64,000 nucleotides of DNA from Streptantibioticus silvisoli (lineage in GTDB: Bacteria; Actinomycetota; Actinomycetes; Streptomycetales; Streptomycetaceae). The DNA is taken from NCBI RefSeq assembly GCF_027947535.2, contig NZ_JAAGKO020000008.1, positions 124,001-188,000 on the forward strand, in the 5' to 3' direction. The position numbers and the translations under genes are program-made. Below the pieces are notes generated by a model. That model worked only from the letters and a program-made list of their open reading frames with translations. It searched no databases and was not told the DNA's origin. Positions 37,057 through 61,963 of the stretch are shown here, in pieces; within the stretch, counting starts at the first letter, position 1, and every line of letters begins with the position of its first letter.

Positions 37057-37098
37057 ATGCGCACCCGAATTCTCGTACTTGGACGGCGCGTCGGCTGA
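37057..37098 (+). CDS. ilvB leader peptide
   Basis: A 13-codon ORF, MRTRILVLGRRVG, with Ile, Leu, Val, Leu and a later Val codon, preceded by GGAGGGAGGG (37039-37048) at 8-nt spacing. It lies 44 nt upstream of a hairpin with a T6 tract and 145 nt before ilvB. Charged branched-chain tRNAs would let the ribosome pass and the terminator form; starvation would stall it in the ILVL stretch. This is classical attenuation, known for actinobacterial ilvB operons. Confidence 0.85.
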   Translation: MRTRILVLGRRVG

Positions 37099-37142
37099 TC
37101 CGGGGCCCGTTCCTCCGCCCCGTTGACAGCACCGGCGCGCTT

Positions 37143-37176
37143 CCCCTCGCTTGCCCTTGGGCACGAGGGGTTTTTT
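37143..37176 (+). terminator. Attenuator terminator upstream of ilvB
   Basis: Stem CCCCTCG (37143-37149) with CGAGGGG (37164-37170), extended internally by TGCCC/GGGCA with a two-base bulge, followed by six T. It sits between the leader peptide and ilvB, so it is the regulated terminator. Confidence 0.88.
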
Positions 37177-37243: not shown

Positions 37244-40742
<3,499 letters not shown>

Positions 40743-58056: not shown

Positions 58057-58159
58057 CGGACCAGGGCCGCCGCGTGAGCCAAGTCGGACGTCCTGATGAC
58101 CGCCGTGCGGCGGGGACGTCGGTGCGGTCCGCCACGACCACACGGTGAAGGACACCCAC

Positions 58160-59260
58160 ATGACGACGCCCACCATCGAGCTCAAGCCCTCCGCGCACAC
58201 CCTCCCCGACGCGGAGCGCGCTGCGGTGCTGGCCAACCCCGGCTTCGGCCGGTACTTCACCGACCACATGGTCACCATCCGCTGGACCGCCGGCCGCGGC
58301 TGGCACGACGCCGAGCTCGTCCCGTACGCGCCGCTGTCCATCGACCCGGCCAACATGACGCTGCACTACGCCCAGTCGGTTTTCGAGGGCCTGAAGGCGT
58401 TCCGGCAGGCCGACGGCTCGGTCGCGATGTTCCGCCCGGAGAACAACGCCGCCCGCTTCCAGGCGTCCGCCCGCCGGCTGGCCATGCCCGAGCTGCCGCA
58501 GGAGCTGTTCACCGCCGCCTGCGAGGCGCTGGTCGCCCAGGACCGCGCCTGGGTGCCCTCCGAACCCGAGCAGTCGCTCTACCTGCGGCCCTTCATGTTC
58601 GCCACCGAGGTCGGCCTCGGCGTCAAGCCGGCCGGCGAGTTCCTGTTCATGGTCATCGCCTCCCCGGCCGGCGCCTACTTCCCCGGCGGGGTCAAGCCGG
58701 TCTCGGTGTGGATATCCGAGGAGTACGTGCGCGCCGCGCCCGGCGGCACCGGCGCGGCCAAGTGCGCCGGCAACTACGCCGCCTCGCTGGTCGCCCAGGC
58801 CCAGGCCATCGAGCAGGGCTGCGAGCAGGTCGTCTGGCTGGACGCCGTGGAACGCCGCTGGATCGAGGAGATGGGCGGCATGAACCTCTACTTCGTCCGC
58901 CGCGACGCCGACGGCACCGAGTGCGTCGTCACCCCCGAGCTGTCCGGCTCCCTGCTGCCCGGCATCACCCGCGACTCCCTGCTGCGGATCGCCGCCGACC
59001 TCGGGTACCGCACCGCCGAGACCCGCATCAGCGTCGAGGACTGGAAGGCCGGCACCGCCGACGGCAGCATCACCGAGGTCTTCGCCTGCGGCACCGCCGC
59101 CGCCATCACCCCGGTCGGCTCCGCGAAGTCCACCAGCGCCGAGTGGACCGTCGGCGACGGCACCCCCGGCCAGGTCACCATGCGCTTGCGCGAGCGGCTG
59201 CTCGCCCTCCAGACCGGCCGGGCCGCCGACACCCACGGCTGGCTGCACCCCGTCGCCTGA
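58160..59260 (+). CDS. ilvE: Branched-chain amino acid aminotransferase
   Basis: Encodes 366 aa from ATG 58160, with GAAGGA upstream; an ATG at 58145 lacks spacing. Fold-IV PLP enzyme. Signatures: the [15 protein letters not shown] entry motif, [13 protein letters not shown] lysine in [13 protein letters not shown], and [15 protein letters not shown]. Last transamination of Val, Leu and Ile synthesis. Its own promoter; followed by 1.1 kb of repeats. Confidence 0.96.
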
Positions 59261-59510
59261 CGGCGCCGGCCGCCTCCGGCGGTAAGGACCGCGTCGCCTG
59301 TCGGGTCGCCTCTGGCGGTCCGACCGCCGTCGCCCGACGGCGTCGCCGCGCGCTCCGACCCCGGTCGCTCGACCGCACCGCCCCTGCGGCCCGACCCCCG
59401 TCGCCCGGTTCCGGTCCCCGCGCACCCCGCGCGGGCCGGCCGGAGCGGGCCCGCGCCCCGGCATACCGAACCACGACCGCGCGCCGGACCACCACGGACC
59501 GGAGCCCAGT

Positions 59511-59785
59511 GGCCCGGCCACCGCGTACCGGTGCACGGCCGACCCGGCCACAGCGGACCGGATGACCGGGCCGGACCACGGCGTCCAGGCGTACCGGACG
59601 ACCGCGCGCCGGGGCGCGGCGTACCGGCCACTGCTGGCCCGGCCACCACGTACCTGTGCACGGCCGACCCGGCCACAGCGGACCGGATGACCGGGCCGGA
59701 CCACGGCGTCCAGGCGTACCGGACGACCACGCGCCGGGGCGCGGCGTACCGGCCACTGCTGGCCCGGCCACCACGTACCGGTGCA
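59511..59785. repeat. 125-bp tandem repeat downstream of ilvE
   Basis: Two full near-identical copies (59511-59635, 59636-59760) of a 125-bp unit starting GGCCCGGCCACCRCGTACC, and 25 bp of a third. The unit length is not a multiple of three, so it is not a protein repeat. 59261-59510 is simple C/G-rich spacer. Confidence 0.85.
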
Positions 59786-59821
59786 CCGCCTGCCCGACCA
59801 CCGCGTACCCGGCCACCGTGT

Positions 59822-60027
59822 ACCGGAGCCCAGCGGCCCGTCCACTGCGTACCGCAGTACGGGGGATCGGACCACGGCCGGCCGCACCGGTGCACCGTCC
59901 ACCGCGTACCCGCCGCCCTGCGGGCTCCCCGTCCACCGCGTACCCGACCACCGCGTACCGGAGCCCAGCGGCCCGTCCACTGCGTACCGCAGTACGGGGG
60001 ACCGGACCACGGCCGGCCGCACCGGTG
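59822..60027. repeat. 135-bp-period repeat between ilvE and cimA
   Basis: A ~75-bp block (59822-59896) recurs at 59957 with one mismatch (T/C), 135 bp apart. The DNA between is built from related ACCGCGTACC elements also found in the 125-bp units. Confidence 0.8.
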
Positions 60028-60128
60028 CACCGCTCACCGGGCCCCGCGGGCACCCCGTACCGGATAATGAGACGGTGGTCCCGCCTCCGGAGACGGTGTG
60101 CGAAACTTCGACCGTGTCCTCGTACGCC

Positions 60129-60164
60129 ATGATTATCGGCAGCAGGCGCGCCGGTCCGCAGTGA
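60129..60164 (+). CDS. Candidate cimA leader peptide with tandem Ile codons
   Basis: An 11-codon ORF, MIIGSRRAGPQ, ending 60 nt before a terminator hairpin with a T6 tract and about 185 nt before cimA. A longer in-frame GTG start at 60114 (VSSYAMIIG) is possible. Two adjacent Ile codons near the 5' end suit isoleucine-sensing attenuation of the first committed citramalate-route enzyme. No clear Shine-Dalgarno, so translation may be leaderless. I know no published description; see findings. Confidence 0.6.
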   Translation: MIIGSRRAGPQ

Positions 60165-60223
60165 CCGCCGGAGCGGACAACTCCCCGCGACGGCGAACAC
60201 CGTGTCCCAGACCCGCGCGCAGA

Positions 60224-60249
60224 CCTCTCGCACCCGCGAGAGGTTTTTT
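60224..60249 (+). terminator. Attenuator-like terminator upstream of cimA
   Basis: Perfect 8-bp stem CCTCTCGC (60224-60231) with GCGAGAGG (60236-60243), ACCC loop, followed by six T. It lies before, not after, the gene on this strand, so it is likely a regulated terminator. Confidence 0.8.
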
Positions 60250-60349
60250 CGTTTCCGGGGCCCGACCGGCCCGGTGAGCGAGGCGCGACGGAGATTACGG
60301 GGGCAAGTGGAATCGGATCCTCCGACCACCACCCGACAGGAGCACCACC

Positions 60350-61963
60350 ATGACGGCAGCACCGGAAACCGTCACGCCCGACGACGCGTTCCACGTCTTC
60401 GACACCACGCTGCGCGACGGCGCCCAGCGCGAGGGGATCAACCTCACGGTCGCCGACAAGCTCGCCATCGCCCGTCACCTGGACGACTTCGGCGTGGGCT
60501 TCATCGAGGGCGGCTGGCCCGGCGCCAACCCGCGCGACACGGAGTTCTTCGAGCGCGCGGCGCGCGAGATCGACTTCCGGCACGCCCGGCTGGTCGCCTT
60601 CGGCGCCACCCGCAAGGCCGGCGGCACCGCCGCGGCGGACCCGCAGGTGGCCGCGCTGCTGGCGTCCGGCGCGCCGGTCGTCACGCTGGTGGCCAAGTCG
60701 CACGACCGCCACGTGGAGCTGGCGCTGCGCACCACGCTGGAGGAGAACCTCGCGATGGTCCGCGACACCGTCGCGCACCTGCGCGAGCACGGCCGGCGGG
60801 TGTTCGTCGACTGCGAGCACTTCTTCGACGGCTACCGCGCCAACCCCGAGTACGCCAAGGCCGTGGTCCGGGCCGCGCACGAGGCCGGCGCCGACGTCGT
60901 CGTGCTGTGCGACACCAACGGCGGCATGCTGCCCGCCCAGGTCACCGCGGTGGTCCGCACCGTGCTGGCCGACACCGGCGCCCGGCTGGGCATCCACGCC
61001 CAGGACGACACCGGCTGCGCGGTGGCCAACACCCTGGCCGCCGTGGACGCCGGCGCCACCCACGTGCAGTGCACCGCCAACGGCTACGGCGAGCGGGTCG
61101 GCAACTCCAACCTCTTCCCGGTCGTCGCCGCGCTGGAGCTGAAGTACGGCAAGCGGGTCCTGCCGGACGGCGCGCTGGAGGAGATGACCCGGATCTCGCA
61201 CGCCATCGCCGAGGTCGTCAACCTCACCCCCTCCACCCACCAGCCCTACGTGGGCGTGTCGGCGTTCGCCCACAAGGCCGGCCTGCACGCCTCCGCGATC
61301 AAGGTCGACCCGGACCTCTACCAGCACATCGACCCCGAACTCGTCGGCAACACCATGCGCATGCTGGTCTCCGACATGGCCGGCCGCGCCTCGATCGAGC
61401 TGAAGGGCAAGGAGCTGGGCTACGACCTGTCCGGCGACCGGGCGCTGGCCGGGCGGGTGGTGGAGCGCGTCAAGGAGCGCGAACTGCGCGGCTACACCTA
61501 CGAGGCCGCCGACGCCTCCTTCGAACTGCTGCTCATCGACGAGGTGCGCGGCACTGCCGAGCGCTTCTTCCGGGTGGAGTCCTGGCGGGCCATCGTCGAG
61601 CAGCGCCCGGACGGCGCCCAGGTCAACGAGGCCACCGTCAAGCTGTGGGCCAAGGGCGAGCGGATCGTCGCCACCGGTGAGGGCAACGGCCCGGTCGACG
61701 CCCTGGACCGCGCGCTGCGGCAGGGCCTGGAGCGGATCTACCCGCAACTGGCCCGCATGGAGCTGGTCGACTACAAGGTCCGCATCCTGGAGGGCCGGCA
61801 CGGCACCGAGTCCACCACCCGGGTGCTGATCGCCACCGGCGACGGCCGCACCGAGTGGTCCACCGTCGGCGTGGGGGAGAACGTCATCGCCGCGTCCTGG
61901 CAGGCACTGGAGGACGCCTACACCTACGGCCTGTTCCAGGCCGGCGTGACGCCGCAGGACTGA
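60350..61963 (+). CDS. cimA: (R)-citramalate synthase
   Basis: Encodes 537 aa, with AGGAG upstream. Condenses acetyl-CoA and pyruvate to citramalate, an entry to isoleucine. HMGL-like barrel with FDTTLRDGAQREG at residues 16-28, metal His in GIHAQDDTGCAVANT and AHKAGLHASAI, and a C-terminal LeuA-type allosteric domain (about 400-530). Length fits CimA rather than shorter NifV/LeuA variants. Isopropylmalate synthase is not in the window. Leader ORF and attenuator-like hairpin lie upstream. Confidence 0.92.
   Translation: MTAAPETVTPDDAFHVFDTTLRDGAQREGINLTVADKLAIARHLDDFGVGFIEGGWPGANPRDTEFFERAAREIDFRHARLVAFGATRKAGGTAAADPQVAALLASGAPVVTLVAKSHDRHVELALRTTLEENLAMVRDTVAHLREHGRRVFVDCEHFFDGYRANPEYAKAVVRAAHEAGADVVVLCDTNGGMLPAQVTAVVRTVLADTGARLGIHAQDDTGCAVANTLAAVDAGATHVQCTANGYGERVGNSNLFPVVAALELKYGKRVLPDGALEEMTRISHAIAEVVNLTPSTHQPYVGVSAFAHKAGLHASAIKVDPDLYQHIDPELVGNTMRMLVSDMAGRASIELKGKELGYDLSGDRALAGRVVERVKERELRGYTYEAADASFELLLIDEVRGTAERFFRVESWRAIVEQRPDGAQVNEATVKLWAKGERIVATGEGNGPVDALDRALRQGLERIYPQLARMELVDYKVRILEGRHGTESTTRVLIATGDGRTEWSTVGVGENVIAASWQALEDAYTYGLFQAGVTPQD

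Follow-up and report, generated by a model that had tools for sequence, protein, structure and literature searches.

The cimA gene of Streptantibioticus silvisoli is preceded by a short open reading frame (ORF) with adjacent isoleucine codons and by a hairpin followed by six T residues. Is this an attenuator through which isoleucine governs transcription of the gene, as an original prediction from the sequence had proposed? The locus lies in a stretch of 64,000 nucleotides, which is the whole of the DNA analysed and is called the window here, and was compared with related loci in other genomes. The comparison argues that the element is very probably a ribosome-mediated transcription attenuator by which the level of charged isoleucine tRNA governs cimA expression; from sequence, we infer translation of the leader, stalling on it and the sign of the response. 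Many members of the class Actinomycetes have the citramalate route to isoleucine (the citramalate synthase family TIGR00977 is found in 310 of 394 sampled genomes), and the cimA leader would let the end product control the first gene of that route.

The element upstream of cimA

The element spans 136 bases (60114-60249, + strand) upstream of cimA (60350-61963, +; TIGR00977, 620.7 bits, cut-off 450) and comprises a leader ORF, a stem called P1 and an intrinsic terminator, T. The leader ORF, MSSYAMIIGSRRAGPQ including its stop (60114-60164, +), starts with GTG at 60114 and ends with TGA at 60162-60164; its regulatory codons are codons 7 and 8, ATT at 60132 and ATC at 60135 (60132-60137, +). The 5' arm of P1, GCGCGCCGGTCCGCAGTG, lies at 60146-60163 (+) and overlaps the end of the ORF, and the outer part of its 3' arm, GACCCGCGCGC, lies at 60210-60220 (+) and adjoins the terminator directly. 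Both arms were assigned from the family fold and from covariation, which for the 5' arm covers 92 elements and concerns positions 5, 6, 9 and 10. T with its T6 tract (60221-60249, +) is a predicted and conserved hairpin (60221-60246) of 11 pairs with an 8-bp core, CCUCUCGC/GCGAGAGG, and the six T residues are at 60244-60249. The short ORF, the adjacent isoleucine codons, the hairpin with its 8-bp core, the T6 tract and cimA behind them are thus all present where the original prediction had placed them.

How well is this arrangement kept? A family set was formed from the best 80 of 576 CimA relatives, ranked by protein similarity, which together with the window gives 81 elements; the element is present at all 80 of these cimA loci. 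Moreover, a model that includes the leader codons (R1) matches 392 of 394 genomes of the family at E <= 0.01, and the sequence of P1 and T is nearly fixed within the family. Taken singly the terminator is weak: the 5 kb scanned contain 3 terminator-like sites, and shuffled sequence gives 0.7 (sd 0.9). A chance terminator is excluded by the conservation in the family set and across the family genomes. A small hairpin could also form over the isoleucine codons (60129-60140, GCCAU-GAUU-AUnGGC), and by eye it covaries in a single element (L044), with a change on both sides.

Codon 7 is ATT in all 81 family leaders, as read by a script anchored on GATTA, which is itself present in all 81. Codon 8 is more variable, being ATT in 50 leaders, ATC in 22, ATG in 8 and ACC in 1, so that it does not encode isoleucine in 9 of the 81. 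Inside the cimA genes of the same set isoleucine is written ATC 1499 times and ATT 7 times. The distance from the leader start to codon 7 is 18 nt in 79 of the 81 elements and 15 nt in one (L006); in another (L079) the script picked a TTG that lies two codons into the frame opened by GTG. Two forms of the leader had been offered, and the one started by GTG is the better. The shorter peptide MIIGSRRAGPQ is rejected, since its internal ATG is replaced by ACG in 6 and by GTG in 1 of the 81 (7/81 in all). Behind the isoleucine codons the frame is free: 62 leaders have 16 residues, 17 have 18 residues in a different frame, and that of L006 stops directly after IIG. The frame there is not conserved, and attenuation does not need conservation at that place.

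A putative leader promoter, the -10-like box GAAACT (60102-60107, +), precedes the ORF, and 77 of the 81 family elements have a box of the form NANNNT that ends 6 nt upstream of the start codon. Because of this spacing, transcription probably begins at the GTG or right beside it, which would make the leader ORF leaderless. Several leader peptides of S. lividans are described as leaderless in PMC8079986.

The next gene upstream is ilvE (58145-59260), on the same strand as cimA. Tandem repeats of about 125 and about 135 bases occupy positions 59510-60039, between ilvE and the cimA leader. Could the hairpin simply end the ilvE transcript, with an ORF placed before it by chance? The shared strand allows it, yet ilvE ends about 850 bases before the element and the intervening DNA is largely repeats, the element has its own -10-like box, and at distant loci it accompanies cimA (57 of 60 fetched R1 matches outside the family; the other three lie before two ilvB genes and a relative of threonine ammonia-lyase). 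This explanation is almost certainly wrong and was rejected on these grounds, and the assignment of the hairpin to another upstream transcript, named in the original prediction as a way for it to fail, is not borne out.

Leader codons and the gene downstream

Beyond the family, R1 matches 202 of 394 genomes of the class at E <= 1, of which 37 are weak (best E > 0.001). Its further matches lie before more cimA genes, three ilvB genes (L199, L203, L205), a leuA gene (L204; 717.4 bits, cut-off 532) and the locus L197; one weak match (L201) was left out. When 20 cimA upstream regions from genomes lacking an R1 match were searched alone, 8 carried the element and 12 were without it. At L197 the leader MFALVIIM, P1 and a terminator precede a 107-codon ORF that matches no NCBIfam family, and the cimA gene of the same genome also has the element (L173).

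A second model, R2, describes P1 and the terminator and holds no leader codons. Among the 42 elements used to build it are 3 ilvB, 1 leuA, 1 ilvA and L197, so that the re-finding of such genes is not independent, while the codons found in front of them are. R2 matches 184 of 296 class genomes (E <= 0.01), and 20 hand-picked new places in the class all precede branched-chain genes (15 cimA, 2 ilvB, 2 ilvA-like and 1 leuA). In the window's own genome a single place scores below E 1, the cimA element, and the 5' arm taken there (60187) is nearer than the true one.

In a sample of the phylum, R2 matches 24 of 246 genomes (E <= 0.001); 13 of these genomes lie outside the class and hold 14 places. 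Ten of these places precede ilvB: in L254, L255 and L261 it is the first gene, and in the remaining seven it comes second, after a short ORF. In two more leuA is the first gene. The last two places are L259, where a short ORF is followed by a prephenate dehydratase gene and the leader tail reads RVLLIT, and L260, which precedes isocitrate lyase with the tail GFVAIA. The short ORFs have about 92-121 codons in L256, L258, L262, L263 and L264, and likewise in L259, where prephenate dehydratase takes the place of ilvB. Several of them look alike by eye; those of L256, L262 and L264 match no Pfam family, and those of L262 and L264 no NCBIfam family.

The element does not follow cimA everywhere. In family f18 eight cimA genes have no leader (L213-L217, L220, L221, L225), and in three genomes the element stands at an ilvA-like gene instead (L233, L234, L190). 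The name ilvA rests here on L190, whose best family is threonine ammonia-lyase at 294 bits, under the cut-off of 496. In two small genomes (L210, L224) cimA appears by eye to lie directly behind the end of an apparent ilvE.

What do the leaders encode at these different genes? Loss of the isoleucine codons or their frame with the hairpin kept, a pattern that would have told against the original prediction, was not found at the cimA loci with a resolved leader: besides the family leaders, all 68 distant cimA leaders with a resolved ORF carry isoleucine, 64 of them as Ile-Ile. In this count the ORF rule yielded nothing at one further cimA locus (L168), 3 of 77 elements were unresolved overall and L178 was given a wrong ORF. 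Leaders of cimA and ilvA carry isoleucine codons, and those of ilvB carry valine with leucine or isoleucine, a valine count that includes L178 in the wrong frame (by eye RVVP). Among the elements resolved in other families, the leader ends in Ile-Ile at 66 of 79 cimA loci (the frame rule missed the isoleucine frame in 5 of the 79) and at 0 of 21 ilvB or leuA loci, whereas Leu-Leu-Leu occurs in 4 of 4 leuA leaders and 1 of 79 cimA leaders; the loci are related by descent, and Fisher values overstate their independence. With R2, isoleucine triplets lie within 15 nt of P1 at 17 of 17 cimA and ilvA loci, compared with 3 to 8 of 17 in five intervals further upstream. Of the 161 isoleucine codons in the 68 distant leaders 83 are ATT, compared with 12 of 522 in the cimA matches downstream (34 in number), and part of this excess may reflect selection by R1, which favours AUU.

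Codon identity changes with the downstream gene, which is a criterion of the leader-peptide attenuator. Indeed, the element combines codons for the product of the pathway in a short ORF, a terminator before the gene and a second stem predicted to be switched by the ribosome, the features by which such attenuators are recognized. Because the leader codons track the genes, some regulation is taken to exist. The isoleucine reading of the cimA leader is strongly supported by these comparisons, and the exchange of codons with the gene is stronger evidence for it than the original prediction had at hand.

The same exchange bears on two readings in which the codons play no part. In one, P1 and T would answer to a ligand or protein in the manner of a riboswitch, with the short ORF incidental. 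The near invariance of P1 and T within the family fits such an RNA; against it, the loops differ freely outside the family, codon identity follows the gene, and at the element Rfam yields no match at gathering score, only a weak one to ar14 (22.4 bits against 58.8). We consider it very unlikely. Throughout the window the Rfam scan gave a single gathering-score match, a glycine riboswitch aptamer (RF00504, 12213-12317, - strand, 61.5 bits). The other reading, that the terminated leader of about 136 nt also acts in trans as a small RNA, draws on the strong conservation of the element in the family; the codon exchange, however, requires only action in cis, and this additional role is extremely unlikely.

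Stem P1, the ribosome and the terminator

Covariation in P1 was scored in 92 of 97 elements (4 had no T run by the rule and 1 no GCGC; L178 was mis-anchored), with both ends anchored on GCGC, so that the first four pairs are fixed by construction. Position 6 occurs as CG, UA, AU, GC and UG and is paired in 90 of the 92, compared with a shuffle mean of 70.2. Positions 9 and 10 are paired in 87 (68.9 shuffled) and 73 (41.8), position 8 in 76 (66.8) and position 7 in only 51 (42.2), against shuffles that do not preserve relatedness. By this evidence from alignment P1 is a real helix, its pairing kept through base changes.

A ribosome covers about 15 nt past the first base of the P site. In 78 of 85 elements P1 begins 11-14 nt after the start of the first regulatory isoleucine codon; the stop codons range from 4 nt before P1 to 23 nt into it. 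When 13 elements were folded with ribosome masks, P1 formed at 0.47-1.00 with the ribosome stalled at the first isoleucine codon and at 0.00-0.07 with the ribosome at the stop codon. A stall at the first isoleucine codon leaves the ribosome at the base of P1, which would explain why codon 7 is fixed and codon 8 may be methionine.

The mechanism that we propose begins with a transcript that would start at or beside the GTG. With isoleucine plentiful, the ribosome would reach the stop codon and cover the 5' arm of P1; P1 would then not form, T would form, and transcription would end before cimA. With isoleucine scarce, the ribosome would halt with codon 7 in the A site and its front edge just before P1. 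P1 could then fold flush against T, T would not be completed in the exit channel of the polymerase, and cimA would be transcribed. The block of T by P1 is a separate and weaker step, to which we give about an even chance.

How could a stem prevent a terminator with which it shares no bases? Of 92 predicted folds, 71 have no nucleotide between P1 and T, 18 have 1 and 2 have 2, so that the two do not overlap in 91. Whether P1 is allowed or masked, the predicted probability of T is 0.95-1.00, and P1 and T form together in equilibrium folds. The mutually exclusive overlap of antiterminator and terminator by which the classical trp type is defined was not found for P1 and T, and in 88 elements, folded without pseudoknots, no upstream segment captured the 5' arm of T. 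While the 3' arm of T has yet to be transcribed, pairing of the 5' arm is higher when P1 is masked (mean 0.369) and lower when P1 is allowed to form (0.097). At equilibrium, these models suggest, P1 would if anything be a mild helper of T. PMC8355165 argues that clusters of contiguous hairpins can terminate well, which counts against P1 as an antiterminator.

Perhaps, then, isoleucine is sensed by the ribosome in just the same way, and P1 serves as a pause hairpin, holding the polymerase in step with the ribosome, with termination decided by coupling or by another structure such as a pseudoknot. The compatibility of P1 and T in equilibrium folds, and the failure of the search for an overlapping antiterminator, speak for this alternative; pausing alone, however, leaves the spacing of 0-2 nt in 91 of the 92 folds unexplained. 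We regard it as possible, though on the unlikely side. A broader proposal builds on the preferred reading, in which P1 itself blocks T: one scaffold, in and beyond the class Actinomycetes, would serve cimA, ilvA, ilvB and leuA, would be respecified by exchange of a few codons before the conserved stem, and would antiterminate without shared terminator bases by means of a flush helix that prevents closure in the exit channel of RNA polymerase. We advance this tentatively, at slightly less than even chances.

Relation to known attenuators

The codon exchange on one scaffold offers a natural series for studying the switching of a terminator by a stalled ribosome, and the lack of overlap between P1 and T poses a direct mechanistic question. 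In practical terms, deleting the leader or changing its codons would be a simple way to alter isoleucine supply in Streptomyces, both in the laboratory and in industry. The original prediction knew of no report of a cimA leader peptide, and among the matches listed in the open-licence literature, to which the search was confined, none was found. PMC1262725 states that no conserved structures were found for other amino acid pathways, and the main text of PMC2965389 does not contain the words Streptomyces, ilv or isoleucine.

Leader peptides of S. lividans (alaL, ilvL, thrL, trpL1/2, leuL1/2 and metL) are described in PMC8079986, whose table of eight has none at cimA; several resemble the cimA leader as predicted here, with a short leaderless ORF and, behind it, a hairpin and a U-rich stretch. 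The LEU element of leuA (PMC1262725) has a run of leucine codons in a leader ORF before leuA, as do the leuA leaders found here. It is described there as a pseudoknot with the Shine-Dalgarno box and no obvious terminator, whereas the present leuA leaders (L204, L246, L252, L265) use the scaffold of P1 and terminator.

The window holds a second leader, that of ilvB (37244-39085, +). Read by eye (37057-37176, +), it consists of the ORF MRTRILVLGRRVG, a stem (37086-37097 with 37127-37140) and a terminator (37143-37176), a layout the same as that of the cimA element, and to this extent the likeness noted in the original prediction stands. The arginine pair that the two leaders share, taken there as part of the likeness, was rejected as a signal: on our reading it arises when the P1 5' arm AGG CGC GCC is translated in one of two frames, and many relatives have a stop codon at that place. 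Neither R1 nor R2 reported this ilvB leader in the window's own genome.

In the classical trp-type attenuator the antiterminator and the terminator share a segment. The cimA leader resembles it in that codon stalling selects between RNA states, and differs in that such a shared segment was sought in the cimA element and not found. The closest relatives are the ilvB attenuators of Actinobacteria (PMC1262725, PMC11857589, PMC13236596), which likewise have a short ORF with branched-chain codons, one or more stems, an intrinsic terminator and a biosynthetic gene; the cimA element differs from them in its gene and in having isoleucine codons only. The hairpins of C. glutamicum ilvBNC are described as overlapping (PMC11857589), unlike P1 and T, so the layout at cimA would be a variant. 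In the S. coelicolor ilvB leader, as PMC1262725 reports, codon changes were without effect, which counts against the attenuation reading. In M. tuberculosis ilvB1, changing LVVI to AAAA abolished induction, and the proposal is that the antiterminator is masked when a ribosome reaches the stop codon (PMC13236596), which is the same logic as that proposed here for the cimA leader.
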